A DNA stretch of 64,000 nucleotides from NCBI RefSeq assembly GCF_003333305.1, contig NZ_QOLD01000045.1:1-64000 (forward strand), read 5' to 3'. Below the pieces are notes generated by a model. That model ran no database searches and was not told where the DNA came from. It saw only the letters and a program-made list of their open reading frames with translations. The stretch comes from Candidatus Colwellia aromaticivorans (GTDB lineage: Bacteria > Pseudomonadota > Gammaproteobacteria > Enterobacterales > Alteromonadaceae). The translations under genes were made by a program, and so were the position numbers. Shown one piece after another: positions 42,482 to 62,551 of this stretch (position 1 is its first letter; every line of letters begins with the position of its first letter).

Positions 42482-43138
42482 TTAGCGTTTTAAATATTGA
42501 TTGAAATCTATATCACTACAGCCGACAACAACTTTTACACGATTGGACGCGCCTAATTTTTTTAAGATAGAAGAAACATGTGATTTTACCGTCGTTTCAG
42601 AAATATTTAAGTTAAAAGCTATTTGTTTATTTGCTTCACCTTTAGTTAAGTGTTGTAACACCATTAATTCTCTGCGTGTTAATAAAAATATTTTTTCTGG
42701 TGATACTTCGAATTCTTTTGCTGGGTTAACGCTTGTTTGTGAACGAATAATATCTGCCGGTAAATAAACATTACCTTCAAATATACTTTTAAGTGCTTCA
42801 CCGATAATATTTTTTGCGGATGATTTTGCAATAAAACCAACAGCGCCGTAAGCAATAGTTTGTAGGATAACTTGTTTTTCAGTTTCTGCAGAAATAATAA
42901 CCACTGGAATTGTTGGGTATTGATTACGTAAATCAAGTAAGCCGGCAAGGCCTGACATACCAGGCATGTTCAAATCTAGCAGAATAAGATCGATATCATT
43001 AGTTTCTTTTGCAACGGCAAGCGTTGATTCAATGTCTTTGGATTCAAAAATTTCAGACTCAGGAAAAGTTTGAGAAATAATATTTATTACGGCATCCCTA
43101 AATAAAGGGTGATCATCAGCGACTAAAATTTTATACAT
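42482..43138 (-). CDS. NarL/LuxR-type response regulator (ExaE/ErdR/AgmR-like)
   Basis: The 218-residue protein has a receiver domain with acidic pocket DDHP (residues 7-10), phosphorylated Asp in LILLDLNMPGMSG (about 55), and Lys in AKSSAKN (about 105), followed by a LuxR HTH (LTRRELMVLQHLTKGEANKQIAFNLNISETTVKSHVSSILKKL). The type is that of regulators of PQQ-linked alcohol oxidation and acetate use (ExaE, ErdR, AgmR, CrbR). It lies at the 3' edge of the PQQ block, next to the porin gene. A candidate site CATCCCTTAGTGGTA lies at 43201-43215 upstream of it and recurs upstream of the porin gene, suggesting autoregulation. Confidence 0.85.
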   Translation of the reverse strand: MYKILVADDHPLFRDAVINIISQTFPESEIFESKDIESTLAVAKETNDIDLILLDLNMPGMSGLAGLLDLRNQYPTIPVVIISAETEKQVILQTIAYGAVGFIAKSSAKNIIGEALKSIFEGNVYLPADIIRSQTSVNPAKEFEVSPEKIFLLTRRELMVLQHLTKGEANKQIAFNLNISETTVKSHVSSILKKLGASNRVKVVVGCSDIDFNQYLKR

Positions 43139-43200
43139 GGTATTACCTATTGATATTATTGCACTTCTACACTCTAACAGAGTGAATTTAATTATTTAAT

Positions 43201-43215
43201 CATCCCTTAGTGGTA
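43201..43215. promoter_or_regulatory. Candidate response-regulator site, copy 1
   Basis: CATCCCTTAGTGGTA lies 63 bases before the response-regulator start. A near-identical 15-mer occurs at 44623-44637 in the same orientation upstream of the porin gene. Both are in gene-free DNA. Confidence 0.5.
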
Positions 43216-43299
43216 AGAATCTCATCTTTAAGTTATAAAATATACCATTATAATGTTTCTCTGTTAAATAATGCGTATTTGTTTGATTTATAAGAAGCA

Positions 43300-43331
43300 A
43301 AAAGGAGCAGAAATAAATTTCTGCTCCTTTT
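43300..43331 (-). terminator. Strong hairpin terminator of the porin gene
   Basis: A perfect 15-bp stem (AAAAGGAGCAGAAAT and its complement) with a two-base loop lies 30 bases after the porin stop. It ends in a T-run (CTTTTTGC read on the minus strand) formed by the A-rich arm. Confidence 0.9.
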
Positions 43332-43361
43332 GGTATGTTGTAAATTTATAAGATTACAAAT

Positions 43362-44516
43362 TTAGAAGGTTACAACAGCACCAATTGAGAATACGTTATT
43401 CTCTTCTGCTGTTAGATTTGAAGTACTATTATTGTCTATTTCAGTTTTATTTAATTCAGCTACAAGGGTAACTCCAGGAACAACAGTTCTGAAATAAGAA
43501 ACGTTAGTGTTGCTACTTTCTGTCTCCATTGTACCGTTATCGATCGTAGATTCACCGTAAGAAGCTACAAAACGATTATCACCCATAGTATAAGATGCTT
43601 GTACTAGGTAACCATCAGTCTCAGTAGTTTCATCAGTTACGATGTGATCTAAACCTCCAAAATGACCTACACCTTCAGCGTCAAAACCAGAAGCCGTTAG
43701 TGATACACCTGAGAATTTAACGTTAACACCATAGCCAACACCAGATTGATCTTGATCAGCACCAGCATATTCACTTGATTGTGACATACCGTTAACCCAA
43801 CCTTTTACTGAGCCGCCATCAAAAGTTGTGTCGTAGGTTAATTCCGCTTCAAAACGCGGCATATCTTCATCTGAATCTTTATGAACTTTATTAGGATCCA
43901 TAATACCAACCGCTAATTTAAAGCCGCTCATATCAGGGGTTCTATAGGTGATTTGTGCTTTTGGAAAAGCATAGGTATAACCGGTAGCAATATTACCGAA
44001 AGACACATTACCGCCATCCACTAAACCGAGCGCGTTAGAAGTTTGGCCGTAACCAAGTAATAACTCATCACCAAAAATATTAGAACGGTTAAACAGACCA
44101 AAATCTTTACCTAGTAATACTTCACCAAAGTCGCCGCTTACTGTGGCATAAAACTGACGAATATCAATTTGTGAGTGAGTTCCAAAACCTTGTCCACCGC
44201 GTTCAACGTCTGGATCACTTAAAGAAACCCAAAATGAAGAACGGGTAGCTACTGTATAGTCACCTACTTTATTACTAGAATTCAAACCAATGTAGCTTGG
44301 TAAGAAACCTGTTCTTACACGTGCTTGTTTGCTGTTTGTCTCTACACCAGCGTCATCAGTCATGTCAGTATCGCTGCTAGAATAAAATATGTTTATTAGA
44401 CCATCTGCAGTGAACGTCATGCCTTCATCGTTATTATACAATTCAACAGCGGCACTGGCGTTAAATGCTGTGGTACAGGCAAGGGCGATTGCGGCTAATT
44501 TAAATTTTGTAGTCAT
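43362..44516 (-). CDS. Outer-membrane porin (Gram-negative porin type)
   Basis: The 384-residue protein has a signal peptide (MTTKFKLAAIALACTTAFNASA, cleaved near residue 22), alternating beta-strand pattern, and a terminal phenylalanine (GAVVTF), the outer-membrane assembly signal. It resembles neutral/anion porins of about 16 strands. Its position next to a PQQ-type regulator and ABC importer suggests that it admits an alcohol, aldehyde or small organic substrate; that is inference. It has its own terminator and a candidate operator far upstream (44623). Confidence 0.85.
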   Translation of the reverse strand: MTTKFKLAAIALACTTAFNASAAVELYNNDEGMTFTADGLINIFYSSSDTDMTDDAGVETNSKQARVRTGFLPSYIGLNSSNKVGDYTVATRSSFWVSLSDPDVERGGQGFGTHSQIDIRQFYATVSGDFGEVLLGKDFGLFNRSNIFGDELLLGYGQTSNALGLVDGGNVSFGNIATGYTYAFPKAQITYRTPDMSGFKLAVGIMDPNKVHKDSDEDMPRFEAELTYDTTFDGGSVKGWVNGMSQSSEYAGADQDQSGVGYGVNVKFSGVSLTASGFDAEGVGHFGGLDHIVTDETTETDGYLVQASYTMGDNRFVASYGESTIDNGTMETESSNTNVSYFRTVVPGVTLVAELNKTEIDNNSTSNLTAEENNVFSIGAVVTF

Positions 44517-44622
44517 GTTTTGTTTCCTTTATGTTTTATAGGTTTTATCGGTTTTATTGTAATTACAATAATGATAAAAAACTCTACAGTTAAGCGGTAT
44601 TGGTAATGATAGTGAAAAAAAA

Positions 44623-44637
44623 CATCCCTTAGTGCTA
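44623..44637. promoter_or_regulatory. Candidate response-regulator site, copy 2
   Basis: CATCCCTTAGTGCTA lies about 107-121 bases before the porin start, identical in 14 of 15 bases to the copy upstream of the response-regulator gene. A palindromic TACTTAAGTA follows at about 44652-44661, nearer to the porin gene direction. Confidence 0.5.
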
Positions 44638-44697
44638 CACCAAATGCGTAGTACTTAAGTAGGAGAAAATAAAAAAAGGATGAGGTAGGGAAATTTT

Positions 44698-45447
44698 TCA
44701 ATCGGTATTGATACTGCCAGAAAGGATTTTAGGATACTGACTCATTAGTTTTGCCTGCCAAGCAAGTTCAGTGCTGCCTGACTCTTTTCTCGGCTTAGGT
44801 AAGTCAACATTAACTTGATGAATGATTGAACTGGGCGAATTGCTCATAAAAATAATACGGTCAGCTAAGTTAATAGCCTCACTTAAATCATGAGTAACGA
44901 AAACAACGGTGCTATCACAGTTTTTACACAAGTTTACTAGTAGTAACCTTAGTTTAGCTGCCGTTGGCGCATCAAGAGAGTTAAAGGGCTCATCAAGTAA
45001 AATCAGCTCAGGGTTAACAGCAAAAGCTCTTGCAATAGCAACTCGTCGTTGCATGCCGCCAGATAATTGCTTAGGGTAATAGTTACCTTTGCCAGCTAAG
45101 CCAACTTGCGCTAACAATGTTTCTATTTTTTCCTCTTGTGGTGTAAGTAACACTAGCTGTATGTTTTCATTAACGGTTAGCCAAGGCATTAACCTTGGTT
45201 GTTGAAAAACGTAACCTAGTTGGTACTCTTTACAGTCATTGAGTGCTTTTGAATTACATAACAGTTTTTGCCCTGTGGCATCTTCAAGCCCAGAGAGCAT
45301 GTTTAGTAATGTCGTTTTACCAGAGCCAGAAGGGCCAATAATCGCAGTAAACTCACCTGGCTTAACCGTAAACTCAATATCTTTTAGTACTACAGCATCG
45401 CTATTTGCATAGTGTTTATCTTTAATGGCAATATCAAGTTCTATCAT
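44698..45447 (-). CDS. ABC importer ATPase (nitrate/sulfonate/taurine type)
   Basis: I take ATG 45445-45447, which follows GAGGTG; the longer frame starts GTG 45456. The protein of 249 residues has GPSGSGKTT (Walker A, about residue 36), QLSGGMQRRVAIARA (signature), LILLDEPFNSLD (Walker B) and VTHDLSEA (H-loop). Sequence type is SsuB/TauB. Its start overlaps the permease end, so translation is coupled. It energises the importer together with the permease and the binding protein upstream. Confidence 0.9.
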   Translation of the reverse strand: MIELDIAIKDKHYANSDAVVLKDIEFTVKPGEFTAIIGPSGSGKTTLLNMLSGLEDATGQKLLCNSKALNDCKEYQLGYVFQQPRLMPWLTVNENIQLVLLTPQEEKIETLLAQVGLAGKGNYYPKQLSGGMQRRVAIARAFAVNPELILLDEPFNSLDAPTAAKLRLLLVNLCKNCDSTVVFVTHDLSEAINLADRIIFMSNSPSSIIHQVNVDLPKPRKESGSTELAWQAKLMSQYPKILSGSINTD

Positions 45448-46258
45448 GGTGAACACCTCTAGCGATTAATTTATCTAATGGCCTAAAAATTAAGTTCTCA
45501 ATCACTAACACGATAGAAATAAAAGCAAAGGTATAAGCGAGAATCCCAGCAATATCAAAAAACTGAAATAAGGTGTTTAAGGCAAAGCCAACGCCGTCAC
45601 TTCGTCCTAACAGTTCAACCACTAAGACAATTTTCCATATTAAAGATAAACCTGCGCGTGCTGACGCCATAATGTAGGGATAAAGTTGTGGTAAAAATAC
45701 TTTAAAAAAAGTTTTACTTAAAGATAATTTATACACTTTCGCAACATTGAGTAAATCTTCATCTACCACACGGGCGCCTTCTCTTATCATGACAACAACG
45801 GTGGGTATTTTATTAATAACTACCGCAGTTATTGCGGCTGATTCAACCAAGCCAAACCAGATATAACACAGTAAAATAGTCACTAGGGCAGGGATATTAA
45901 GGGCGATGATGAGCAAGGTGTCGGTTAACTGATTAAGTCGCTCACTGGTACCCATTAAAATACCGATAAAAACACCTAAAATCATCGCTATGGTAAAGCT
46001 GATTAATACACGAGTTAAGGTAACCGCGAGATTGGCTAGCATATCACCTTGAAAAAAATGATAAATAAAGCTTTCTAATACAATGAATAATGAAGGGAAA
46101 TCAGCGCTATTGACGAACCAAGCGATACTTTGCCACGCGCTAGCGATGATTATTAACATTAATAATCGGCCATATACTGGTGATGTCAATATGGACATTA
46201 ACAATGTAAATAACCGGCTTGTTAATGCTTGCTCGTTAGAATGTGTGTTAATAGTCAA
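45434..46258 (-). CDS. ABC importer permease (SsuC/TauC type)
   Basis: The 274-residue protein has about six membrane helices and the inner-membrane EAA loop region (VYKLSLSKTFFKVFLPQLYPYIMASARAGLSLIWKIVLVVEL, around residue 175-215), typical of BPD_transp_1 permeases. The start is TTG 46258 with AGGA four bases before it; it lies five bases after the binding-protein stop. It is the inner-membrane channel of the three-gene importer. Confidence 0.88.
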   Translation of the reverse strand: MTINTHSNEQALTSRLFTLLMSILTSPVYGRLLMLIIIASAWQSIAWFVNSADFPSLFIVLESFIYHFFQGDMLANLAVTLTRVLISFTIAMILGVFIGILMGTSERLNQLTDTLLIIALNIPALVTILLCYIWFGLVESAAITAVVINKIPTVVVMIREGARVVDEDLLNVAKVYKLSLSKTFFKVFLPQLYPYIMASARAGLSLIWKIVLVVELLGRSDGVGFALNTLFQFFDIAGILAYTFAFISIVLVIENLIFRPLDKLIARGVHHDRT

Positions 46259-46263
46259 TTATC

Positions 46264-47319
46264 CTATTTAAGCGGACATGTTATTTGATGACCTATTAAG
46301 TCGTCGGCAATCTTTTTGTCAAAAGATGGATTCACTTTATTTGTTTTCCAAAAAGTACCTTCTGCCAATATTGTTGCTTTACCCACTAAATTTCTGCCAC
46401 CTTGCTCTGCTAAAACAGAGAATATTTGCTTACTTGCCTTAATTTCTTCAGGTCCAAATTTATCTAGTAATCGAATTCTGTATTCATTTTTTAGGGCTAG
46501 AAAAACTTTGTCATTTTCTGCTTTGATTAAAGGGCGTATTCTTTGCCACTCATCATCACAGTATAGTAATAACTGTTGGGCTTCTTTAGAGGCTTGTAGA
46601 AAACTGGTTAATTTTTGCTTGTGTTCAATCGCCCATGCTTGCTCGAACACCCATCCCAGTAATGGCACTTTATTGGTTATGCCTAACTCAGCTAGCATTT
46701 CTGGCACACTTACCAATAGTTTGAAGCCATTAGCACTTAATCTAGCATTGTAATGCCAAAAGTTGATTGCTGCATCTACAGCATCTCGTTCCATTAAGCG
46801 GTTTAGTAATGGCGGTGTTGCGAACACCATTTCAGCACTATCTTTAATGTTCAGCTGATATTTTTTTTGTGCATACGATTGTAATAGTAACCAATTTTTA
46901 TCAACTGATCCGCCAGCTACGCCAATTTTAGTTTGAGTTAGGTCATTTAGTGATTTTGCAGTAGAGTCACCGGCAACGTACAAGCCGCCAGAGGCAATTG
47001 ATGTGGGAACTAAGGTATAATTTTTATCATTAAAGCGTTGTCGATTTACCCATAACCAATCACTGAGAATAATATCAACCGCTTTACTTTGCAGTGCCAC
47101 TGCAGAGGCATTTTTATTACTTAACGGCATTACCTGTAGATTGAAATTATATTTTTTATCTAATTGATAATGTTTTATTACCGCTATTTCCCAATTAACG
47201 GTGCCATACTTTAATACCCCTACACGTACTTTTGGCAAGTCTGCATAAGTATTGGCATTAATTGTGAGACAGCTAAAGCAAATAATAAAGAATAATAAAC
47301 GAATAGGGGAAGTATACAT
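46264..47319 (-). CDS. ABC importer periplasmic binding protein (NMT1/SsuA-like)
   Basis: From ATG 47319 (an upstream GTG at 47328 is possible) the protein has a signal peptide (about residues 1-25, LLFFIICFSCLTINANTYA) and an SsuA-like binding fold: VRVGVLKYGTVNWEIAVIKHY, then ALQSKAVDIILSDWLWVNRQRF and GVAGGSVDKNWLLLQSYA. Ligand is not known. Its neighbours are the permease and ATPase downstream and a TonB receptor upstream, which suggests that this system and the receptor import the same compound through both membranes. Confidence 0.85.
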   Translation of the reverse strand: MYTSPIRLLFFIICFSCLTINANTYADLPKVRVGVLKYGTVNWEIAVIKHYQLDKKYNFNLQVMPLSNKNASAVALQSKAVDIILSDWLWVNRQRFNDKNYTLVPTSIASGGLYVAGDSTAKSLNDLTQTKIGVAGGSVDKNWLLLQSYAQKKYQLNIKDSAEMVFATPPLLNRLMERDAVDAAINFWHYNARLSANGFKLLVSVPEMLAELGITNKVPLLGWVFEQAWAIEHKQKLTSFLQASKEAQQLLLYCDDEWQRIRPLIKAENDKVFLALKNEYRIRLLDKFGPEEIKASKQIFSVLAEQGGRNLVGKATILAEGTFWKTNKVNPSFDKKIADDLIGHQITCPLK

Positions 47320-47346
47320 TAATAACACCAGATAATTAAAAGAAGG

Positions 47347-47379
47347 AGAGATATTTGCACTAAACAGGCAAATATCTCT
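47347..47379. terminator. Hairpin between the TonB receptor and the importer
   Basis: AGAGATATTTGC at 47347-47358 pairs perfectly with GCAAATATCTCT at 47368-47379. On the minus strand the following bases are CCTTCTTTTA, a modest T-tract. It lies between the receptor stop and the binding-protein start and probably reduces but does not abolish read-through. Confidence 0.55.
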
Positions 47380-47385
47380 TTATTA

Positions 47386-49698
47386 CTAGAACTTGTAATT
47401 AACACCTACTGAGAAGGATCTCGGTCTAGCAGGTCCAACAAAGTATGGCTCTTCAACGTCGGGATAAAAATCTTCTAACACTTCATCGGCTTCGCCATAA
47501 GTACCAAATGTTTCATATTGATGATCAAATACATTATCTACTTTCGCAGATAAATTTAATTGACTCGTTATTTGGTAAGAAAAATACACGTTAACTAAAG
47601 AATATGCTGATATTTTTTTGTTTTCATTGGCTTCATCACCACGATAGTAAGAATCAGAAGAATATAATAATTCTGTACCTACACTGATGTCTTGATTAAT
47701 TTGCCAATCCGCATGCAGCTTAAACTGATGTTGTGGTTGACCAGGAATGACATCTCCAGGGCTAACTTGACGATTTGCGCCAAGTGGGTTTACTGGGCTA
47801 AATGATACAAAAGGTGACTCAAAAGTTGCCTTTAAGTAATTATAGCTAGTGCCTACAGTAACTTCATCAAATGCTACTGAGTATGCTAACTCTACCCCTT
47901 GGCGTAGTACTTTATCAATATTGACAAAATAACCCTCTGAAGACGTTGAGCCCGCTTGTTGGAAAATTATGTCATCAATCGTTTTCGTTGAAAACAAAGT
48001 AGCGATGGCTGATACCGAATCAGTATTATATTGTATTGATGCTTCAACTGTTTTAGCCACAACTTGTTCAAGCGGAGGATCAGCAACAAAGCCGTTGGGT
48101 AATTTACACGGGTCATCTTCATCAGCACAACTTAACTCAGCAGGGCTAGGTACGCGCGAAGATTCGCTGTAACTAAGTTTGGCACTAAACTCATTGTTTA
48201 TTTTATAATCAAGACCGACAGCAGGGTTAAAGCGATTAAATTTATGGTTTCCATCAAGAGAGCCTTCACCGTCATCGATAATATCATTCATAATAATGTG
48301 GCTATTATTGTAACGACCAGCAATATTTAGCGTTAGCCCATAGTTAAAAGCCATTGAATAAGAGGCAAAGGCATATTGTTGCTTAGTGGTAACATCTAAG
48401 CGTACTTGTGACTCGCTATCAAAAAAGCCGGTTGCTGATACTGAACGATCATCTTCAGCAGAATCGTTATTAAGAATGCCAAATTGAGTATTACTATTAA
48501 AGCTTATATCGGCTTTATCCATTCCTAAGCCAAAAATAAATTCTTGTTCAAAATTATCAAAGCTTGTTACATGGATCAATTGAGTAGCAAAACCATAGCT
48601 GGTATTATCGGTAGCTCCATCATTGAGTGTGCCATCAACTTCATCTGGGTCAATAGTTGAAATATCACTAAATAAAGTCCCTTCATCGTAACCGACAAAA
48701 TCAACCATGGTTAACGAGCCGTCGTCTTCATCTTCTTCACAAAGCGTTTCACCAGCGCCAAAGTCGCAATCTTCATAATCACTGTCATCACCATTGATGG
48801 AATTGATTTTATTTTGGCGATAATATGCATTGGCTTGCACAGATAAATTGTCATTAATGACAGAGTCGCTAGAAATACTAATTAATTGATAATCGTTGTT
48901 AGTTCTGTCTGGGTGAGTATAAACTGTTTCACGGCCTTCAATAGCTATTAGTTCTTCAGGTGCTGCGCCATTGCCAGTCATCTCATTATCATTCGCAGCA
49001 AGTAATAACTCAAAATAATTATCGTCGTCTTGAAAGCTAAATGAGGCTAATGCTTGTTTTAATTCACTTTGAGAAAAATCACGCCAACCATCTTCTTTGT
49101 AGCTGTTAGCAATAAAATAATATCCCCAGTTACCGTTGTTACCGCCTGATTGTACTGTGTATTGTTGTTGACCAAAGCTGCCAAAACGAACATCAGCTTC
49201 ATTTGTCGTATAGTTAAAGCCGTTTTTAGTTTTCAGTGATAAGGCACCACCTAAGGTGTTTTGCCCGAAAGCTGGGTTAGAACCAGAGTACAAAGCAACA
49301 CTATCTAGCGCAGCTAAAGGAATTAGATCCCAGTTAACGGTATCGCCAAAAGGTTCATTAAATCTTACCCCGTTTAAATAAACAGAAATACCTTGTGGCA
49401 AGCCTAATAGAGGTGAAGCAGTGAAGCCGCGATATTGAACATCAGGTTGGAAAGGGTTATTTTGCACATCACTGATAGTTACACTGACCAATTGATTTCT
49501 CATGTGATCAGCAAGTGATGTAGCTTGGGCACGAGTGATGTCTTCAGTGCTTATAAACTGCGCGCTACCGATGATATTTGCATCTGTAGCTATATTGCTT
49601 GATAGCGGTGTTTGTCCAATAACGCTGATTTTTTCAATATCATCAGCTAATACGGGTAAGGCACAAAGTAAACTCGTTAGAGCAAAAATGCGGTTCAT
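47386..49698 (-). CDS. TonB-dependent outer-membrane receptor
   Basis: The 770-residue protein has a signal peptide (residues 1-18), a plug domain with the early QYRGFTASPLLGLPQGISVYLNGVRFNEPFGDTVNWDLIP region, and a beta-barrel ending in YKF. A TonB box resembling EKISVIG lies at residues 22-28. An extracellular loop at about residues 300-327 is extremely acidic (GDDSDYEDCDFGAGETLCEE, then DEDDGS) with two cysteines. It imports a scarce ligand with energy from TonB. The acidic loop could favour cation or cation-complex binding; the ligand may be a metallophore, a lanthanide complex or PQQ itself. It stands just upstream of an ABC importer, with a partial terminator between. Confidence 0.88.
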   Translation of the reverse strand: MNRIFALTSLLCALPVLADDIEKISVIGQTPLSSNIATDANIIGSAQFISTEDITRAQATSLADHMRNQLVSVTISDVQNNPFQPDVQYRGFTASPLLGLPQGISVYLNGVRFNEPFGDTVNWDLIPLAALDSVALYSGSNPAFGQNTLGGALSLKTKNGFNYTTNEADVRFGSFGQQQYTVQSGGNNGNWGYYFIANSYKEDGWRDFSQSELKQALASFSFQDDDNYFELLLAANDNEMTGNGAAPEELIAIEGRETVYTHPDRTNNDYQLISISSDSVINDNLSVQANAYYRQNKINSINGDDSDYEDCDFGAGETLCEEDEDDGSLTMVDFVGYDEGTLFSDISTIDPDEVDGTLNDGATDNTSYGFATQLIHVTSFDNFEQEFIFGLGMDKADISFNSNTQFGILNNDSAEDDRSVSATGFFDSESQVRLDVTTKQQYAFASYSMAFNYGLTLNIAGRYNNSHIIMNDIIDDGEGSLDGNHKFNRFNPAVGLDYKINNEFSAKLSYSESSRVPSPAELSCADEDDPCKLPNGFVADPPLEQVVAKTVEASIQYNTDSVSAIATLFSTKTIDDIIFQQAGSTSSEGYFVNIDKVLRQGVELAYSVAFDEVTVGTSYNYLKATFESPFVSFSPVNPLGANRQVSPGDVIPGQPQHQFKLHADWQINQDISVGTELLYSSDSYYRGDEANENKKISAYSLVNVYFSYQITSQLNLSAKVDNVFDHQYETFGTYGEADEVLEDFYPDVEEPYFVGPARPRSFSVGVNYKF

Positions 49699-49839
49699 TA
49701 TTATTCCTAAATTATAAATTCACTCATAATGTAACGTGAATAACTAAGTAATGGTATATTTCAAAGACTTTGCCATACAAAACAAATCCATATAATACCT
49801 TATAAAACAAATGGTTGGTTGGTGTGTGCTGCAAGACCC

Positions 49840-49855
49840 TCCTACTAAGGTAGGA
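49840..49855. promoter_or_regulatory. Perfect inverted repeat upstream of the TonB receptor gene
   Basis: TCCTACTAAGGTAGGA at 49840-49855 has 6-bp arms with a four-base centre. It lies between the end of the histidine kinase gene and the start of the TonB receptor gene, 142 bases before the latter. It shares CCTACT with the site upstream of pqqA. It could be an operator or a weak terminator of the kinase gene; no T-run follows. Confidence 0.4.
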
Positions 49856-49906
49856 AGACTTTACAACTAATTTTATCAAGAGAATACGGTACAGTCCCCC
49901 TGATAG

Positions 49907-53771: not shown

Positions 53772-55907
53772 CTAGGCTACTTTTTTTATTTTAATAGGCC
53801 GAGTACTGTATTTATGAACAACGCATAATTTAGGGCTTTCAATGGTAACTAAACACTCCAAACACTGAATACATTCACCGTAATCAATTGAACCATTTTG
53901 ATTGATAGCGTCAATATCACATTTTTTGTTACGACATAATTGACAAGGGCTACCACACTCTTTTCTTCTTCTTAACCATTTCAATAGGGGAAAACGACCA
54001 ATAATGGCTAACCCTGCACCTAAAGGACAAAGATAACGACAATAAAATTTATGAATTTTTAAACTTAATAATAATAAAAGTACAGAATAGAGTACAAAAG
54101 GCCAATAGCGAACAAAATTTAAGGTGATACTGGTTTTAAAAGGCTCAATTTCGGCAAGTTTTTCTGCTAAAGAAAGAGAGTAAAATGATGTGCCAACCAA
54201 GAGAAATAAAATAATGTACTTAATTTTCTGTGCATATTTATGATGCTTAGGTGATATTTTTATTTGTCTAATACTGAGTTTTTTTGCCAACAGCCCCATC
54301 ATTTCTTGAAGGGCACCGAAAGGGCATAACCAACCGCAAAACAAGCCTCGTCCGAAAAGAAATAGACTAATGAATACAAATACCCACAAAATGAAAATAA
54401 CCGGGTCTAATAAAAACACTTCAAGTCTAAAGCCATTAACTAATGACAATAATAATGTATAAATATTAACAACAGACAGTTGGCCTTGAGTGTAGTATCC
54501 GATGTAAAAAATAGTAAAAATTAGCATTGTGAAACGTATTCTATGGGTAGCATTAACGTGGCTAGCAAGTTGCTTTTGTTTCAAAAACAGTAAGGATAAA
54601 ATAATTAGGTATAGTGAGAGTACCGCTATTTCAACAGTACGGCTTAGCCATATTCTTACCCATAAAGGTTGTTTTTTTACGATAACAACTTTGGGTGTGT
54701 AAAATAATTTTTCAGGTAAAACTAAGTTGGTGGTGAATTGGTGTTGCTGTGTGGACAAAAATGACTGGCTATAATTAACAGCAAGTGAAACTTCAAAAGC
54801 TTGACTTATTTCAAAGCCAGATTGAGATTTTATTCTGAATATATTTTGTTGTTCAAAATCTGGGATTTGTATATTGAAAGAAGGATCATAGTAACTATAA
54901 AAATCAATATCACGAATATCTACCGGAAACTCGCCTTGAACAACGCTTAGTCTGGCTGGAACAGTTTGGGGAATGAAATCTTCACTGGCATAAGAATAAG
55001 CGCCACGATTGAATATCATTAATGCATGTTCACCGGGTTTTAGACTTTCAAGTAATCGCTGATATTCTTCTTCGCCTAACAGATTTTTACCGATAACAGG
55101 AATATTAACAAAAGCAAAATACAACTCAATAAAGTCGCTAATATCTACAGTGTCATTGTCTTTGGCTAATTCTTCAATAGCGTTTACTAATTCATTAGAA
55201 ACGTCGGAAGCAAGTTTTAAGCTTTGTTCTTTGCTTACTTGCCAGTGTGATATATGGCCTTGTTCTATCAGTTGTATAAAGCTGAGTTTTTCGAAAAAAT
55301 CTGTGTCAATTTTTACTGTTGTTGCAGCGGCAAAACCTTCTAGCTTAGCTCTTGCGACTTGTAGGGCTGAGGCAATAATTGTATCGTTAATCACCATTAC
55401 TGATACAGTTGCTCTTGTTACACCATCAAAGTTAGTAATACCAGGGGTACTGGTGTCCTTAGCATTTATTATAAAACGCTCTTTTATAGAGTGCCCTTTA
55501 TACTGGTCGATAAAGTCAAACATAGACTGTTCGCCAAGACCATGTAAAAAAATAGGTTCGTGATGATTGAGTACTTTAAAGCCTGCGAATACGCCATTGA
55601 TATCAATACCAATCAATACATTGATTGTTTCACCTGAAAATCCAATAAAATTAGTAAAATCGTCAGATTCAAAAACGTAGCCTAATAATTGACTAAGCTG
55701 GTAAACAGGGGTTGTTGCTAAGTTAGGATCAGTTTGGCCAATACGGGTAGCGCTTGGAAAAATTTCTTTAATATCTGCGGGAATAGCCGTTACTTCACTA
55801 TTTTTAAAAGAGTTTGACTCATCAAAAGCAAAAGCGGGTTTTAGGGAAATACAAAGGAATAAGAAGAGTAAATAAAAATGGAGTCGTAATACGTCAACTA
55901 TGTTCAT
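53772..55907 (-). CDS. NosR/NirI-like flavin and iron-sulfur membrane protein
   Basis: The 711-residue protein has a signal peptide (about residues 1-27), a periplasmic FMN-binding domain (about 90-190) with a threonine attachment-type motif in FDGVTRATVS, several membrane helices (about 425-640), and cysteines for [4Fe-4S] clusters: CGWLCPFGALQE, CRYLCPLGAG and the ferredoxin-like CGSPCQLCRNKKCD plus CIQCLECLV at the C-terminus. Family members feed electrons from the quinone pool or cytoplasm to periplasmic oxidoreductases. Here no nos or nir genes are adjacent; it precedes an aldehyde dehydrogenase and a PQQ block, so it may serve periplasmic oxidation of alcohols. GGAG lies before the ATG. 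The hairpin TAGCCCTT/AAGGGCTA lies at 55933-55960 upstream. Confidence 0.87.
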   Translation of the reverse strand: MNIVDVLRLHFYLLFLFLCISLKPAFAFDESNSFKNSEVTAIPADIKEIFPSATRIGQTDPNLATTPVYQLSQLLGYVFESDDFTNFIGFSGETINVLIGIDINGVFAGFKVLNHHEPIFLHGLGEQSMFDFIDQYKGHSIKERFIINAKDTSTPGITNFDGVTRATVSVMVINDTIIASALQVARAKLEGFAAATTVKIDTDFFEKLSFIQLIEQGHISHWQVSKEQSLKLASDVSNELVNAIEELAKDNDTVDISDFIELYFAFVNIPVIGKNLLGEEEYQRLLESLKPGEHALMIFNRGAYSYASEDFIPQTVPARLSVVQGEFPVDIRDIDFYSYYDPSFNIQIPDFEQQNIFRIKSQSGFEISQAFEVSLAVNYSQSFLSTQQHQFTTNLVLPEKLFYTPKVVIVKKQPLWVRIWLSRTVEIAVLSLYLIILSLLFLKQKQLASHVNATHRIRFTMLIFTIFYIGYYTQGQLSVVNIYTLLLSLVNGFRLEVFLLDPVIFILWVFVFISLFLFGRGLFCGWLCPFGALQEMMGLLAKKLSIRQIKISPKHHKYAQKIKYIILFLLVGTSFYSLSLAEKLAEIEPFKTSITLNFVRYWPFVLYSVLLLLLSLKIHKFYCRYLCPLGAGLAIIGRFPLLKWLRRRKECGSPCQLCRNKKCDIDAINQNGSIDYGECIQCLECLVTIESPKLCVVHKYSTRPIKIKKVA

Positions 55908-55969
55908 ACTAGACTCCGAAAGTAACTGAATTTAGCCCTTCAAGGGAAGGAAAAGGGCTAATGCACTAT

Positions 55970-57490
55970 TTAGAAGAAACCTAATGGGCTAGTGCTATAG
56001 CTTACTAATAAGCACTTAGTTTGTTGGTAATGATCAAGCATCATTTTATGCGTTTCACGACCAATACCTGACTTCTTATAACCACCAAATGCAGCATGAG
56101 CAGGGTATAAATGGTAACAGTTAGTCCATACACGACCAGACTCAATACCACGACCCATACGGTAAGCTTGGTTAGTGTCACGTGTCCAAACACCAGCACC
56201 TAAACCAAAGGCAGTATCATTAGCGATTTCTAAAGCTTCTGCAGCGTCTTTAAAGGTAGTAACAGAGATTACAGGACCAAAAATTTCTTCTTGGAAAACT
56301 CGCATTGAGTTGTTGCCTTTTAAAATAGTTGGTTGGATGTAATAACCTGATCCTAGTGGGCCGTCTAATTTTTCAGCTGCGCCACCAGAAAGTACCGTTG
56401 CACCTTCATCTTTACCTATTTGTAGGTAATCTTGAATTTTTTCGTATTGCTGTTGAGAAGCTTGTGCGCCAACCATAGTGTTAACATCAAGCGGGTTACC
56501 GCGAACAATATTTCTAGTTTTTTCAAGTACTTTTTCCATGAACTCTTCAAAAATATCTTCTTGAACTAGTGCACGAGAAGGACATGTACATACTTCACCT
56601 TGGTTAAAGAAACCTAATGCGAAACCTTCAGCACATTTGTCTATGTAGTCATCTTCTTGATTCATGATATCACTAAAGAAGATGTTTGGAGATTTACCAC
56701 CAAGCTCTACAGTAGAAGGAATTAAGTTTTCAGCAGCACATTTCAAAATGTGTTGACCAACAGGTGTTGAACCAGTAAAAGCAATTTTACCAATACGTGT
56801 GCTTGTTGCGAGTGCTTCACCAGCTTCTTTACCGAAACCATTAACAATGTTTAAAACACCATCAGGTAATAAGTCAGCAATCAATTCCATAAATACAAGA
56901 ATACTTGCAGGAGTTTGCTCAGCAGGCTTAAGAACAATACAGTTACCAGCAGCAAGTGCAGGAGCTAATTTCCATGCAGCCATAAGCATAGGAAAGTTCC
57001 AAGGGATAATTTGACCAACAACACCAATAGGTTCATGGAAGTGATAAGCAACAGTATCGTCATCTATTTCTGAATGTGTACCTTCTTGAGCTCGGATACA
57101 ACCAGCATAATAGCGGAAATGATCTACAGTTAGCGGAATATCAGCATTAAGTGTTTCACGTACGGGCTTACCATTATCCCATGTTTCTGCAACAGCGATG
57201 GTTTCAAGGTTAGCTTCAACACGGTCAGCAATTGCTAATAATATGTTTGAACGGGCTTGTACTGAGGTTTTTCCCCATGCCGCTTTTGCTGCATGAGCAG
57301 CATCAAGTGCTAATTCAATATCTTCAGCACTTGAGCGTGGAATTTCACAAATTGCTTCACCTGTAACAGGGGTAGTGTTAGTAAAGTAATTTCCTTTTAC
57401 CGGAGCAACCCATTTACCACCGATAAAATTTTCATATCTTGATTTAAATGTAACTACAGAGTTTTCGCTTCCAGGATTTGCATAGATCAT
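55970..57490 (-). CDS. exaC: NAD-dependent aldehyde dehydrogenase, ExaC/AldA type
   Basis: The 506-residue protein matches the ExaC/AcoD branch in length and sequence. Visible sites are [10 protein letters not shown] (early), the nucleotide-binding FTGSTPVG, the catalytic Glu in VELGGKSPN and the catalytic Cys in NQGEVCTC (about residue 301). It oxidises acetaldehyde or related aldehydes to acids in the cytoplasm using NAD. In Pseudomonas exaC lies beside pqq genes and follows quinoprotein ethanol dehydrogenase; the same association holds here without the dehydrogenase. GAGGTGAATT precedes the ATG. exaC is used by analogy. Confidence 0.9.
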
Positions 57491-57639
57491 AATTCACCTC
57501 ATATGTTAGACCCACCAAAATTTGATCTTTTTTGGGAGCCTTGAATTTTTTATCGTGTTATTAATTAAACAGTATTTGTCTATAGATATAATAGGATTTT
57601 ATTGGCAAGTTAAACCATGCTCCCTTGGCATAAAAAAAC

Positions 57640-59142
57640 TCATACTTTAGGATGGGGGTTGTTGGCCAGTACTTGTAAGTAGTTAGATATATCTGTGGCG
57701 GTTATGTTTATTACTTGGTTACTTTGCGCTTGGTATGCTCGACAGTATTTAATTTTAGCAAGGGCTAAGCTCATACTAATAAAGCGTTTATCTTGGCTTA
57801 ATTGTAATAAACAAAGCGGCACTTCTTTTAATCGAGTGTTGGGATTAACATCAAAAGCACTATATATAGCGAGGTAAGCTGAGTTTTCAATCGTTAATGC
57901 TTGAGTTGCGTAGCAAAGACCTTGACACCGAGGTACTAAAAACAGTGGGTATGCACTTATAATGTAACTAGTAATATTAGCGAGTTTTTTTTCAGTAACA
58001 CCAATAGCCGTTAACCATAAAGCATTACGTTGATCACTTGTGTACGCCGAATATCTTTGATGATTTAACTCATTACTAATTGACTTATTGTCAGTTAATT
58101 GGTTCTTAGCTTGTTGGCATAGCTTGGTAAATAAGTTGGGTAGTAAGGTTTTATTTGCAGATATTTTTATTTCAATGTTTTTTATAGCAAGACCAATCGC
58201 TTGCTTGTTATTTGCCTTTTTTACTAGTTTATTAGATAAGGTAATCAAAGGGGGAATTAAGTTGCTATTGGAAAGTACTGGTAAGGTGTCAGTATCTGTT
58301 ATTAATGGTTTGTTCGAATTTTCAATTTCTTTGTAGTCATCAATTTCTTGATAGTAAGGGTCTTGCAGCCACAAATGATAGAGTGTTATAAGTTTGTTGA
58401 TTTCTTGAGAATATTTTTTTTGATGGTTCTCGGTATTTTCACTATCTAGTGCATTCTCTTGCGCATTAACTTGTAACTGTGTTCTGTATTTACCTAGCTC
58501 TACTTTTATCTGAGTAGACTGCTTGGGTAATAATGTAATCAAGTCTGCTATTTTTTCCATATCCGCATTAGCGGTAACTAAGGTGATATTACTTGCATGG
58601 TAAAAGCGTTGATGGAAAGCTGTTAAGTCGTTAAGCGTTAATTCACCAATTGATGTGCTAATGCCACCATAGCAAAATTCATTTTCATTAGTATCTTTAT
58701 TGCTTTCTTCAGTGCTTTTAGTACTTTCTTGATTGGCTTGCTCTACGCCAATTAATTCTTGATAAATTACACCTTTATTATTGCCATCATGAATTTCAAA
58801 TCGCAAATCATCAGCATTAAAAATGGGATTAAACAAACCATTTAGCAAATAATTAATAGCCAACATAAAGGTGTGTTCACACTGGCTTTGACAATGAAAG
58901 TAAGTGGTTTCAGTAAAGGTTGATGCATTAATTTTAGCATCGGTTAATGAGGTTAGTTGAAAGAGTGTTTCGGGGTGAGGAAAGGCTGTGCTACCACGAA
59001 ACACCATGTGTTCAACACCATGAGCAACACCACTATTATCAAATATGGGCGTATTAACGACAAAAAGTGCGCTAAAACCTTCATTATCGATAATATTAAT
59101 ATGTTTCAAACCATTTTTATGGCAATAAATATTTTCTGTCAT
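57640..59142 (-). CDS. M16-family metallopeptidase, PqqF-like (short form)
   Basis: The 500-residue protein begins with an M16 zinc motif HGVEHMVFRG (HxxEH, about residues 41-50), then a downstream GVIYQELIGVE (about 124-134) carrying the third metal ligand Glu, as in PreP/M16C peptidases. Most PqqF proteins have about 750 residues or more, so this is a short form lacking much of the C-terminal half. It starts 31 bases after pqqE and is likely cotranscribed. It may release PQQ precursor peptide from PqqA or clear it. An alternative is a general peptidase unrelated to PQQ. Confidence 0.7.
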   Translation of the reverse strand: MTENIYCHKNGLKHINIIDNEGFSALFVVNTPIFDNSGVAHGVEHMVFRGSTAFPHPETLFQLTSLTDAKINASTFTETTYFHCQSQCEHTFMLAINYLLNGLFNPIFNADDLRFEIHDGNNKGVIYQELIGVEQANQESTKSTEESNKDTNENEFCYGGISTSIGELTLNDLTAFHQRFYHASNITLVTANADMEKIADLITLLPKQSTQIKVELGKYRTQLQVNAQENALDSENTENHQKKYSQEINKLITLYHLWLQDPYYQEIDDYKEIENSNKPLITDTDTLPVLSNSNLIPPLITLSNKLVKKANNKQAIGLAIKNIEIKISANKTLLPNLFTKLCQQAKNQLTDNKSISNELNHQRYSAYTSDQRNALWLTAIGVTEKKLANITSYIISAYPLFLVPRCQGLCYATQALTIENSAYLAIYSAFDVNPNTRLKEVPLCLLQLSQDKRFISMSLALAKIKYCRAYQAQSNQVINITATDISNYLQVLANNPHPKV

Positions 59143-59173
59143 TTAGTCAGTTTTGTTAATTCTGAAGCCAAGA

Positions 59174-60352
59174 TCATACTTTTATACGTGCAATGTTTAA
59201 CGTAGTGTCTTTAGCATGCTTCATGGCTTTCTGGTTAACGCGCTTTACTATTGGTTTTGACGGATTAGTAGCACTTTCAATTGCTTGTTGAATTAAGTGG
59301 TGATCTTCAGATTTACTACAAACGGGATCGGTTTTATGCATATCGCCAGTCATCATAAAGGCCTGACAACGACAACCGCCGAAGTCTTTTTCTTTTTCAT
59401 CACAACCTTTACACGGTTGGGGCATCCAATCATCACCACGAAAGTAATCAAAAGAAAAATCTTGCTGCCAAATATCATCAATAGATTTATCTTTAACGTT
59501 TGGAAAAGTTAGTGGTAGCATTTTTGCACTGTGGCAAGGTAAAGCAGAGCCATCTGGCGTTACCGTTAAAAAGGTTGATCCCCAACCATTCATACAAGCT
59601 TTCGGACGGGTTTCAAAGTAATCAGGCGTTACAAAAATAAAATGTGGCCCTTTACCTTGTTGTTCATCTCTAAATTCATTAACAATACATTCAGCCTCAA
59701 TTAGCTGTTGTCGCGACGGTAATAAATGATCACGGTTTTGATACGCCCAACCATAATATTGTGCGGTTGCTAACTCTACATAATCAGCTTCTAACTCACA
59801 GCTGAGCTGCATGATTTCTTCAATTTGCTCAAGGTTTTGTTTTGATAAAACAAAGTTAAGCACCATAGGATAACCTTGAGCTTTAACCGATTTAGCCATA
59901 TCAAATTTTTGTTGGTAGGCATTACCACGACCGGCAATCGCATCATTTAGTTCAGGATCTGCACCTTGAAAACTTATTTGAATGTGATCTAAACCTGCTT
60001 CTTTTAGTTTTGCGATACGTTTTTCGGTTAGACCAATACCCGAGGTAATTAAATTGGTATAAAAACCTAGGTCTCTGGCATGCTTTACTAGTTCTTCTAA
60101 ATCTTTGCGTAATAAGGGCTCACCACCAGAAAAACCCAGTTGTACAGCCCCCATTTCTCTTGCTTCGGTAAATACCTGACACCATTGTTGTGTGGTTAAC
60201 TCATTTTTTGTTTCGCTCAAATCTGTTGGATTTGAGCAATAAGGGCAATGTAACGGACAATCATAAGTGAGTTCAGCAAGTAGCCAAAGTGGTGGACCCA
60301 CGAGGGCAGGTGAATCTTTCTTTGATATGTCAGTTACGGGTTGATTAGTCAT
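59174..60352 (-). CDS. pqqE: PQQ biosynthesis radical SAM protein PqqE
   Basis: I take ATG 60350-60352 ([10 protein letters not shown]), overlapping pqqD by eight bases, giving 392 residues; the upstream in-frame start at 60400 would overlap pqqD by far more. It has the radical SAM cluster C-x3-C-x2-C in [13 protein letters not shown] (about residues 27-39), then a SPASM-type C-terminal cysteine array ([26 protein letters not shown]). PqqE makes the carbon-carbon cross-link between Glu and Tyr of PqqA. The order pqqA-B-C-D-E is standard. Confidence 0.96.
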
Positions 60353-60641
60353 GATAAAGCCACTTCTTTTCAATTGCTGTGGTGATAAATTCATTAACAT
60401 CAGCGGTTAAGTCACCGGCATCAGGGAACTTTCTGTTCAGTTCAGTAGTAATTTGTTGTACGTTCTTTTGCCCATCAATAAGTTGCATAATTTCGCCAGC
60501 ACCGCCATTGAGTTTAACCATGCCTTCTGGAAATAATAACACAAAGCAGTCTTGCGCTTTTTCCCACTGAAAACGGAACATCCTATTAAGTGTTGGTGTC
60601 ATTGTTGGGCTTATGTTTGAGGGTGCTGTTGGTGTGCTCAC
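60345..60641 (-). CDS. pqqD: PQQ biosynthesis chaperone PqqD
   Basis: The 98-residue protein matches PqqD ([22 protein letters not shown] core, about 37-58). It binds PqqA and presents it to PqqE. The start is GTG 60639-60641, overlapping the pqqC stop (GTGA), and its end overlaps pqqE, so C, D and E are translationally coupled. An ATG at residue 14 is possible but the PqqD family usually includes more N-terminus. Confidence 0.93.
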
Positions 60642-61405
60642 TTAAATATACCTTTGTGATAAATAGGATTATTAATAGCTTCTTGTCCAAGTATCGCTTG
60701 ATAGGGCGCTCTACCTTGTTGATAAGCCAATGTCATTGAGTCTAACATGCTCCACAAAATATCCAGTTTAAATTGTAAAATATTTAAGGCATCTTCTTGT
60801 GCTTCGCGGCTAGTAAAATGATCTAAGGTTATTTGCAAGCCATGATTTACATCACGACGAGCTTGCGATAAGCGCATTTGAAAATATTCTAAACCTTCAG
60901 GTTTTATCCATGGGTAATTTTGTGGCCAGCTATCAAGACGGCTTTGATGTATTTCAGGCGCAAACATTTCTGTTAATGACGAACAGGCAGCTTGTTGCCA
61001 GTTAGCTCTGCGAGCAAAGTTAACGTAAGCGTCTACCGCAAAACGAACACCAGGAAGAACAAATTTTTCATCTAATAAGTCTTGTCTGTCTAAACCAACA
61101 GCTTCGCCTAAACGTAACCAAGCTTCAATACCACCTAAGGTTTTTTCACCGGCATTGCCATCGTGATCTAGAATACGCTGGATCCATAAGCGTCTAGTTT
61201 CCATATCGCGACAATTTGCCATAATTGCCGCATCTTTAATCGGTATATTTACTTGGTAATAAAATCGATTAGCCACCCAGCCTCTAATTTCCTCTTCGCT
61301 GCACTCTCCTTTGTGCATCGCAATGTGGAAAGGGTGGTGAATATGGTACAGTTCGCCTTTGCTTCTAAGTTTATGTTCGAACTGTTCTCTGGTCCAAGCT
61401 TGCAT
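60638..61405 (-). CDS. pqqC: Pyrroloquinoline-quinone synthase PqqC
   Basis: The 255-residue helical protein has PqqC family signatures: [42 protein letters not shown] (about residues 20-61), HDGNAG (about 81), and HQSRL and HGLQ later. It catalyses the final ring closure and oxidation of PQQ. It lies 23 bases after pqqB and overlaps pqqD by four bases. Active-site His and Arg residues are conserved by eye. Confidence 0.96.
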
Positions 61406-61428
61406 AAAAATGGATCCTATCAGTGAGG

Positions 61429-62346
61429 TTAAATCGTTATTTCCATGCCATCAGTGGCAATTTCAACACCGTTGTCTAAAACAAATTGATGCTGAGGAGA
61501 TTCTTCATTTAAAATGGGGTTAGTGTTATTAATATGTATAAGTATTTTTCTATCGATTGTAAATTTGTTCAATAGAGCGACTGTACCGAATTTACCATTG
61601 ACAGGCATATGGCCCATCTCAGAGCCTAATTTCGAACCAACGCCTTGGGCAATCATTTCATCATCTAGCCATAAAGTTCCGTCAATAAGTACACAGCTTG
61701 CTTCGGATAATATGCGTTCTACTTCTGGCGTGCTTTCAACAATACCCGGCAAATAAAACAAATATTTACCCGTACTTTTATCAATAATTTTTAAACCGAT
61801 ATTATTACCATCTACCACTTTATCGCGATAACGAGAATAAGGAGGAGCATTAGATTCAATAATAACAGGAACGAACTCTAAACCGTCAACGCCATTTACA
61901 TCGAATGGTTGTCGTTGTTCGGTATCAATTTTGGTAAAATTAAGACCTCCGTGCCAATGCTTTAACATAGGGAATAATGGGTAAGCGCTGGTCAAATCTT
62001 CATAGACAACATCACTACAATAGACATCAAGTGGTAGCCCTTCACGCAGGGTTATTAGCCCAGTGGTATGATCTATTTGGCTATCAGTTAAAATTGCTGC
62101 ACGAATGTTAGTACCACGACTACCTTCTTCAGGCCAAAGTTGTGGGGATTGATTTATTTGTTGACGAATATCGGGAGATGCATTGATCAATACCCAGTCT
62201 TTTCCATTAGGGCTGACGGCAATTGATGATTGGGTGCGAGCGGTTGCTTTAATTGTACCGTCGCGTAAGCCTTTACAGTTTGCACAGTGACAATTCCATT
62301 GAGGAAATCCACCACCAGCAGCTGAGCCTAGAACTAAAATTTTCAT
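61429..62346 (-). CDS. pqqB: PQQ biosynthesis protein PqqB
   Basis: The 305-residue protein starts [28 protein letters not shown], which is diagnostic of PqqB, followed by a degenerate metallo-beta-lactamase site ([11 protein letters not shown]) and a late TDGM.I end. The CxCxxC-like site (CHCANC) binds zinc. PqqB is thought to hydroxylate or carry an intermediate and is part of PQQ biosynthesis. It starts 133 bases after pqqA, with a stem-loop between. Confidence 0.96.
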
Positions 62347-62399
62347 ATGTGCCTCGAGATCAAGACAAAGGGGGAGTCAGAAATTGTCTAGTGATAACT

Positions 62400-62441
62400 A
62401 ATTACCTCAGTTTTTAAGCGTTGGCTATAACTGAGGTAATT
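62400..62441 (-). promoter_or_regulatory. Attenuator-like stem-loop between pqqA and pqqB
   Basis: AATTACCTCAGTT at 62400-62412 pairs perfectly over 13 bases with AACTGAGGTAATT at 62429-62441, with a 16-base loop. It lies between pqqA (ends 62480) and pqqB (starts 62346). No T-run follows on the minus strand. In other bacteria a hairpin here raises pqqA mRNA relative to pqqB; the same role is plausible here. Confidence 0.7.
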
Positions 62442-62479
62442 TATTCTTATTAATGTATTCTTATTTGAAATAAAAAAAA

Positions 62480-62551
62480 TTAACGGTTGCTGATGTATAG
62501 AGTTACTTCAAATCCTAAACGCATTTCTTCAAAGTTAGGCTTAATCCACAT
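62480..62551 (-). CDS. pqqA: PQQ precursor peptide PqqA
   Basis: A 23-residue peptide beginning MWIKPNFEEMRLGFEV and ending NR, with the Glu15-x3-Tyr19 pair that PqqE cross-links. It has the standard length and ends close to the family (usually ...TMYFANR). GCGAGGAATAAATT precedes the ATG (SD GAGGA). It is the first gene of the pqq group and too short for routine gene finders. Confidence 0.96.
   Translation of the reverse strand: MWIKPNFEEMRLGFEVTLYISNR

Follow-up and report, generated by a model that had tools for sequence, protein, structure and literature searches.

We analysed a stretch of 64,000 nucleotides of Candidatus Colwellia aromaticivorans (the window; bases 1-64000 of a 71,702-base contig), in which an earlier reading of the letters, the original prediction, had placed a minus-strand block that links the synthesis of pyrroloquinoline quinone (PQQ) to a sensor pair, a NosR-like protein and an import system. 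The block and the adjoining 7.7 kb past the window are one enlarged ped/exa cluster, because the genes for a PQQ alcohol dehydrogenase, PedF and PedA1A2BC adjoin the block on the same contig. We consider it likely (probability about 0.7) that block and 7.7 kb together form a largely self-contained island for lanthanide-dependent periplasmic alcohol oxidation. The island is real, well conserved and of an enlarged ped type, and two additions to that type are of interest: a TonB-dependent receptor and a clade of NosR-like proteins.

The reading starts from what was observed, namely the gene content, a lanthanide-type active-site residue, the co-occurrence of the genes and their families; the metal used, the transported substrates, the direction of electron flow and the regulation we infer as follows. 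A PedH/ExaF-type quinoprotein with PQQ and a predicted lanthanide would oxidise alcohols in the periplasm, and ExaC would oxidise the resulting aldehyde; cytochrome c550 and, probably, the NosR-like flavo-iron-sulfur protein would pass the electrons to the respiratory chain; the TonB-dependent receptor would most likely carry the lanthanide (free or chelated) over the outer membrane and PedA1A2BC would move it over the inner membrane; pqqA-E would make PQQ and a PqqT-like ATP-binding cassette (ABC) system would recover it; and NosP, a NahK-like kinase and a LuxR-type regulator would control the set, with nitric oxide (NO), haem or an alcohol-derived compound as candidate signals.

The dehydrogenase and the genes that accompany it

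The original prediction noted that the dehydrogenase and cytochrome c550 are absent from the window, which is correct for the window's open reading frames (ORFs), and placed the user of PQQ elsewhere. That user lies on the same contig, 5.7 kb past the window edge, in the rest of the contig (L010), which encodes (window coordinates):

64226-65014, minus strand: PedC, model cut-off passed
65011-65739, minus strand: PedB, model cut-off passed
65752-66729, minus strand: PedA2, model cut-off passed
66790-67992, minus strand: PedA1, model cut-off passed
68261-68701, divergent from PedA1A2BC: cytochrome c550 PedF, model cut-off passed
68694-69581, divergent from PedA1A2BC: binding protein in the PedG position, far under the cut-off of the nearest quinoprotein model
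69723-71516, divergent from PedA1A2BC: PQQ alcohol dehydrogenase (TIGR03075)

The dehydrogenase scores 783 bits against the TIGR03075 cut-off of 480, and the closest solved structures in a PDB comparison are 6zcv/6zcw, of which 6ZCW is PedH with praseodymium (PMC11996626; here as below, papers are cited for passages of their text). In the alignment its active site reads WDFDGVNE, as in 6zcv, where ExaA (1flg) has WDFSGNNE, and WD[FY]DGVNE is found in 33/33 extracted dehydrogenase relatives. The second aspartate of the WD-x-D motif is an established mark of lanthanide use. The same criterion is also applied in PMC11996626. On these grounds the enzyme is predicted to be of the PedH/ExaF type and lanthanide-dependent. 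A PQQ_2 search of the whole genome recovered this dehydrogenase and, beyond that, nothing but a frame of 420 aa on contig 58, presumed from its length to be BamB; one methanol/ethanol-type PQQ dehydrogenase was detected in the genome, with no Ca-type PedE partner. The absence of any such enzyme from the genome had been named as a finding that would speak against the block's role, and it does not apply. With the dehydrogenase, PedF, PedA1A2BC and the NosP/NahK-type pair found together, the periplasmic PQQ alcohol-oxidation unit that had been proposed is supported, in line with the ped cluster of Pseudomonas (PMC12997753).

The gene list given earlier for the block, from pqqA to the response regulator on the minus strand (42482-62551), was recovered completely and in order, with many products over curated cut-offs:

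42482-43138, minus strand: LuxR-type response regulator, probable partner of the NahK-like kinase (Response_reg and GerE)
43362-44516, minus strand: porin (Porin_4, 84.7 bits)
44698-45456, minus strand: ABC ATPase of the PqqT-like importer (ABC_tran; nearest models of sulfonate/nitrate type, below cut-off)
45434-46258, minus strand: ABC permease of the PqqT-like importer (BPD_transp_1)
46264-47328, minus strand: periplasmic binding protein, PqqT homologue (PDB matches 9b1u/9b1v, 9ooz)
47386-49698, minus strand: TonB-dependent receptor of a LutH-like family, candidate lanthanide receptor (TonB barrel and plug; acidic, probably extracellular loops)
49907-52456 from ATG (ORF open from a TTG at 52504), minus strand: hybrid histidine kinase of the NahK/ErcS family (NF041832)
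52449-53615, minus strand: NosP (FIST) sensor protein (NF041558; FIST_N/FIST_C)
53772-55907, minus strand: NosR-like membrane flavo-iron-sulfur protein of the PQQ-dehydrogenase-linked clade (family models, alignment, tree)
55970-57490, minus strand: ExaC acetaldehyde dehydrogenase (NF050026, 960 versus a cut-off of 900)
57640-59142, minus strand: M16 peptidase-like protein of the pqq cassette (PF00675, 32.8 bits versus 22.3)
59174-60400, minus strand: pqqE (TIGR02109, 557 versus 381)
60345-60641, minus strand: pqqD (NF002535, 124 versus 101)
60638-61405, minus strand: pqqC (TIGR02111, 363 versus 240)
61429-62346, minus strand: pqqB (TIGR02108, 394 versus 245)
62480-62551, minus strand: pqqA, 23 aa with an E-x3-Y motif (read from the sequence)

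The Pfam thresholds were passed for FIST_N/FIST_C, Porin_4, the TonB barrel and plug, the ABC ATPase and the permease; the M16 protein has a weak match only (its score against the PqqF model is 29 versus 320). The overlap that had been seen between the FIST and kinase genes is confirmed, at 56 bp with the TTG start and 8 bp with the in-frame ATG at 52456. As judged from models and homology, the products of the island include a PedH-type enzyme, a NosP and a PqqT homologue; the NosR-like protein, the TonB receptor and the kinase fall outside NosR, PqqU and the strict NahK/ErcS' type.

The island shares with the ped genes of Pseudomonas putida KT2440 and the exa-pqq genes of P. aeruginosa the PedH-type dehydrogenase, PedF, the aldehyde dehydrogenase, PedA1A2BC, the porin, NosP, the NahK/PedS1-type kinase, the LuxR-type regulator and pqq (PMC12997753). 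It differs in the added NosR-like protein, LutH-like TonB receptor and PqqT-like ABC system, in the single PQQ dehydrogenase found, and in that YiaY and PedS2/PedR2 were not recognised among the genes read.

The association of these genes was followed in 246 genomes of the same family as the source organism, with E limits of 1e-150 (NosR-like), 1e-100 (dehydrogenase), 1e-40 (NosP), 1e-90 (pqqE), 1e-30 (PqqT) and 1e-120 (TonB), whereby the best ≤4 NosR-like, ≤5 dehydrogenase and ≤4 TonB candidates were scored per genome (≤3 in one class-level search). One and the same set of 27/246 genomes, spread over 7 genera, holds dehydrogenase, NosR-like protein and TonB receptor. The dehydrogenase matches are over 1000 bits in 26 of these; in G118 the match is a terminal fragment of 227 residues where a contig stops (436 bits), which was counted as present, and G118 is without NosP, probably since the contig ends there. 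Matches at 39-42% identity (G161, G169 and G177, and second matches in another four genomes) were left out of the PedH-like count, and G100 holds an additional dehydrogenase at 55% identity. NosP is found in 31 genomes (26 of the 27 and 5 others), pqqE in 20 (18 of the 27 and 2 others) and the PqqT-like protein in 22, all inside the set of 27. Six genera (g1, g3, g5, g8, g10, g25) mix carriers and non-carriers, and therefore the trait comes and goes.

The co-occurrence shows a clustering far beyond chance. The TonB receptor accompanies the enzyme even where their genes are not linked: in G100 they are 42 kb apart, and in G244 the receptor gene is on a different large contig. The block is thus organised around the dehydrogenase and not around pqq, as nine dehydrogenase genomes in which pqqE was not found also show. 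Independent variation of the FIST-kinase and ABC/TonB genes with respect to pqq had been named as evidence against a single regulon: NosP and the ABC/TonB genes do vary independently of PQQ synthesis (pqqE was not found in 9/27), and the receptor nevertheless tracks the dehydrogenase (27/27 versus 0/219 other genomes). In 16 named loci with a NosR-like gene, ExaC is beside that gene in 16/16 and NosP and the kinase follow directly in 15/16, pqq genes intervening in L025; these loci were found by patterns from the source genome's NosR-like protein, with a bias to close relatives, and some of them come from an organism identical or almost identical to a sampled one (the NosR-like proteins of L019 and G228 are identical). 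Matches under 50 bits (16-locus maps) or 60 bits (other maps) were dropped. An island that moves as one unit would produce much of this pattern; its genes may travel together, so that the 27/27 counts are not independent, and absences from the NosR-like, dehydrogenase and TonB searches rest on the best 3-5 candidates per genome.

The TonB-dependent receptor and the PqqT-like importer

The TonB-dependent receptor is likely a lanthanide receptor, as its relatives suggest. A search of 72,556 plasmid records gave 25 matches at E ≤ 1e-30, and the neighbourhoods of 15 were read (three unannotated records by tblastn). A lanthanide-type PQQ dehydrogenase lies near 6/15 homologues (two Sphingobium, two Novosphingobium, Variovorax, Burkholderia multivorans) and pqq genes alone near 3/15 (two Paraburkholderia, one Caballeronia). 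The homologue of Methylobacterium nodulans (1/15) has lanmodulin one gene away, a response-regulator gene lying in the gap, and genes for methanol oxidation at a distance of about 11 kb; this lanmodulin homologue (P0020; L139 15056-15460, plasmid pMNOD02) matches 6mi5 at E 5e-38. In Methylorubrum extorquens, lutH is p1785 and lanmodulin p1786 (PMC7391723). The TonB receptor scores 337 bits with the lanmodulin-linked M. nodulans receptor, the values being at most 54 for 19 other and 13 second-type receptors; LutH membership is assigned solely by this homology. With the lut system of M. extorquens the island would thus share a receptor family with a member near lanmodulin, ABC import and a lanthanide enzyme (PMC7391723), whereas the Colwellia receptor goes with a PedH-type enzyme and has an acidic loop, and no lanmodulin was seen among the Colwellia genes read (the genome was not searched for it).

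A receptor of the PqqU type, feeding PQQ to the PqqT-like ABC system in a block for PQQ synthesis and uptake and not for lanthanide uptake, would be compatible with the adjoining PqqT-like gene, with the best PDB match of the receptor, which is PqqU/YncD at a weak 66.6 bits, and with the absence of any receptor over the PqqU cut-off from the scored candidates of the source genome and nine dehydrogenase genomes without detected pqqE (in 7/10 of these genomes 49 of 62-84 candidates). We regard it as unlikely, and less probable than a lanthanide receptor: the score against the PqqU model NF041535 is 102 bits versus a cut-off of 1200, the receptor is present in all 27 dehydrogenase genomes regardless of pqqE and in 5 without a PqqT-like protein, its family includes the lanmodulin-linked receptor, and the genomes without pqqE hold a second, dissimilar receptor as described below.

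The 33 aligned receptors, own one included and one partial relative (L025) left out, share NGDDSD[YF], two conserved cysteine pairs and AELSCAD-x-x-DPC. Their densest 30-residue stretch holds 10-24 acidic residues (14 in the own receptor; the lowest, 10, in G140 and G088), compared with 7-10 in 19 control receptors (control region L119 had no ORF of 550 aa) and 8-12 in 9 second-type ones. Poly-aspartate tracts of very variable length lie inside the acidic loop in L024 (19012-21345), G090 (as Asp-His), G227 and G100. A low-confidence AlphaFold2 model from 7 sequences (mean predicted local distance difference test score, pLDDT, of 41) places the acidic stretches in the long loops that separate its hairpins, whose strands are linked by short turns, which suggests that these stretches are on the outer face. 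According to PMC12997753 and PMC6839425, it is not yet settled how lanthanides pass the outer membrane of P. putida, the PedH model, and PMC11996626 notes that signatures of binding residues are missing when further lanthanide receptors are sought; the island offers a receptor family whose conserved acidic signature tracks the enzyme in 27/27 genomes of one family sample. Our searches of open-licence papers turned up no description of ped-type clusters of Colwellia or Alteromonas that contain a receptor like LutH or a protein like NosR.

The original prediction of a TonB/ABC import system holds in that both parts are present, which are better read as a separate lanthanide receptor and PQQ-salvage importer. 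The PDB matches of the binding protein at E ≤ 1 are 9b1u/9b1v and 9ooz alone (E 3.6e-45), so that it is a homologue of PqqT, 9B1V being PqqT with PQQ and Gd (PMC12828617). Its K144 is invariant in 27/27 rows and aligns with PqqT chain residue K115, the lysine of DKN, which with an offset of 27 would be K142 of full-length PqqT. The PqqT of Methylobacterium extorquens and the Colwellia protein are homologous binding proteins that keep the DKN lysine (PMC12124388, PMC12828617), the Colwellia one being encoded with permease, ATPase and receptor inside a dehydrogenase cluster.

In nine dehydrogenase genomes pqqE was not found (G089, G117, G141, G226, G118, G181, G121, G164, G183), and of these G117, G141 and G164 are in 1-2 contigs and about 100% complete. 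The PqqT-like protein occurs in 9/9 of them versus 13/18 pqqE-positive ones. By one and the same criterion, 9/9 versus 1/18 also have a second TonB receptor, unlike the first, inside the cluster or close to it, with other TonB-like frames in the mapped stretches of three pqqE-positive genomes (G088, G149, G100). Since the enzyme is the same whether pqqE is found or not, these genomes form a natural series. The second receptors of the nine are candidate PQQ receptors; G121, G164 and G183 each add another two receptors, which lie near the cluster without adjoining the PqqT-like gene. That the second receptors are a PQQ-specific family is weakened, since the source genome and G141 hold elsewhere receptors 62% and 60% identical to the second one of G141. 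Because of these similar receptors, it is the place in or near the cluster and not the family that goes with the lack of pqqE.

Several of these results weigh against the lanthanide reading. No PQQ-related or lanmodulin neighbour is found for 5/15 plasmid homologues (Methylocalor, Ideonella, two Caballeronia, Agrobacterium). The likeness to LutH is to the M. nodulans receptor and not to the LutH sequence itself, and the lanmodulin there is one gene away and not adjacent. The distant plasmid homologues keep the cysteine loop, mostly without the acidic tract, which counts against a family-wide need for this tract. The PqqT contrast between genomes with and without pqqE is not significant (Fisher p 0.14). 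A second kinase-regulator pair like the lanthanide switch PedS2/PedR2 was not recognised among the genes read, for which no dedicated search was made.

The NosR-like protein

The NosR-like protein scores 630 against NF046105 (NosR; cut-off 1000) and adjoins ExaC, not nosZ; the ordinary NosR of the source genome is on contig 68, beside nosZ, and scores 1050 bits. The genes of that region (L011 2439-10614) read as nosR-nosZ-nosD-nosF-nosY-nosL, NosR by model and the others from ORFs, and the organism can probably respire nitrous oxide (N2O), as this gene set would indicate. The island protein shares with NosR of nitrous oxide respiration the flavin mononucleotide (FMN)-binding domain, the membrane part with NapH-like iron-sulfur motifs and the 12 cysteines, and differs in its separate clade, its place beside ExaC or PQQ dehydrogenase and its [KR]AT for [GS]AT. 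A tree of 64 rows separates 46 of them, which comprise 3 orphans and 43 neighbours of ExaC or PQQ enzymes, from 18 nosZ-linked ones with support 100/100. K or R precedes the AT of the flavin-attachment site in 46/46 clade rows, and G or S in the 18 nosZ-linked ones; compared with the [S/T]GA[S/T]-like attachment motif, the threonine is kept and the glycine replaced. Barring one truncated row, both groups keep this threonine and all 12 cluster cysteines. The protein from Variovorax has KAT, and its gene is next to one for an FMN transferase, with a dehydrogenase and a relative of the island's TonB receptor close by; it joins the PQQ-linked clade (Shimodaira-Hasegawa-like approximate likelihood ratio test, SH-aLRT, 99; long branch).

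Two results limit this picture. The NosR tree warns of a long branch (L073), and at class level, where 80/369 genomes were tested for a dehydrogenase without NosR-like protein, one (G270) has a PedH-like dehydrogenase without it; that every PedH-like genome carries the NosR-like protein is rejected at that level. The three orphan NosR-like genes (G406, G589, G389) have no dehydrogenase inside the 20 kb read, and a PedH-like one is found elsewhere in all three genomes. The orphans L054, L055 and L056 carry the [KR]AT site too, and the surrounding 8-10 kb or so are free of PQQ genes.

The association with an alcohol dehydrogenase is not new, because an earlier paper (PMC8238504) put forward a flavinylated NapH-like route from exaA-type enzymes to the respiratory chain, reported clusters with an ethanol oxidase in 172 genomes and stated that such associations arose more than once. 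New here is the clade with the altered flavin site, diagnostic of dehydrogenase-linked NosR-like proteins, in which K or R replaces the G of the general motif in 46 rows and Variovorax, in an island that also holds c550. These 172 genomes, and the many genes with Pseudomonas ped counterparts, would fit an ordinary ped/exa cluster with a stray NosR paralogue and a generic iron receptor, which we consider very improbable: NosR-like protein and TonB receptor accompany the dehydrogenase in exactly the same 27 genomes of 7 genera, and the text of the ped review names NosR 0 times and TonB once, for LutH (PMC12997753). Doubtful, though a serious possibility, is a role of the NosR-like protein as redox sensor or regulator, or in outward electron supply for maturation, instead of electron transfer from dehydrogenase to quinone. 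NF046105 labels NosR a transcriptional regulator, and with c550 present a second electron path is not strictly required; set against this are the 12 cluster cysteines and the flavin-site threonine, which are kept, and the Variovorax gene beside an FMN transferase gene and near a dehydrogenase gene. For the lanthanide island as a whole we put forward, as a tentative and rather improbable combination, that acidic loops (NGDDSD[YF], a cysteine pair, often poly-aspartate) capture lanthanide directly, without lanthanophore, and that the NosR-like protein, flavinylated at the non-canonical [KR]AT, delivers electrons from the lanthanide dehydrogenase to the quinone pool, so that alcohol oxidation could feed N2O respiration too.

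NosP, the kinase and the response regulator

NosP scores 552 against the equivalog model NF041558 (cut-off 450). The kinase scores 527 versus 400 with the wider NahK/ErcS C-terminal model NF041832, and 918 versus 1500 with the stricter NahK/ErcS' exception model NF041831; the response regulator is nearest to ErdR, far under its cut-off (170 versus 390). Conserved are H205 of NosP (47/47 rows), H513 and D798 of the kinase in TTG numbering (40/40, after leaving out 4/44 rows under 700 aa) and D55 of the response regulator (33/33), whose gene adjoins the NahK-like gene in 22/26 other dehydrogenase genomes mapped. The ExaC-NosP-kinase-regulator set stands without a detected PedH-type dehydrogenase in G045, G216 and G230 (L108, L111, L112), where no NosR-like gene or TonB gene of the window-receptor type was detected either. 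In view of these three genomes, the NosP/kinase pair belongs with the use of alcohols or aldehydes no less than with PQQ.

It had been proposed that NosP senses NO or another haem ligand and that the NahK-like kinase and LuxR-type regulator thereby set the expression of the whole block. The NosP and wider NahK/ErcS scores, the invariant H205, the occurrence of NosP in 26/27 dehydrogenase genomes and the nos cluster on contig 68 are in line with this, and the ped review considers that NosP-PedS1 could act through NO sensing (PMC12997753). We nevertheless hold such control of the block to be improbable, given that the P. aeruginosa pathway leads to HptB/RsmA and biofilm dispersal and not to ped expression (PMC12997753), and given the three genomes with the set and no detected dehydrogenase. 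In the lanthanide island NosP and its partners would control the set with NO as one candidate signal among others.

Some further observations were made on the way. NosP is also encoded at L109 and L110 (G086, G114), where neither a NahK-like nor an ExaC gene was matched in the vicinity. Upstream of pqqA, a small cysteine-rich CWC protein is encoded (window 62800-63084), which is also found upstream of pqqB in L014 and L015. At 23974-26160 the window encodes a large protein with many CxxCH motifs, multihaem-cytochrome-like and apparently unrelated to the island.

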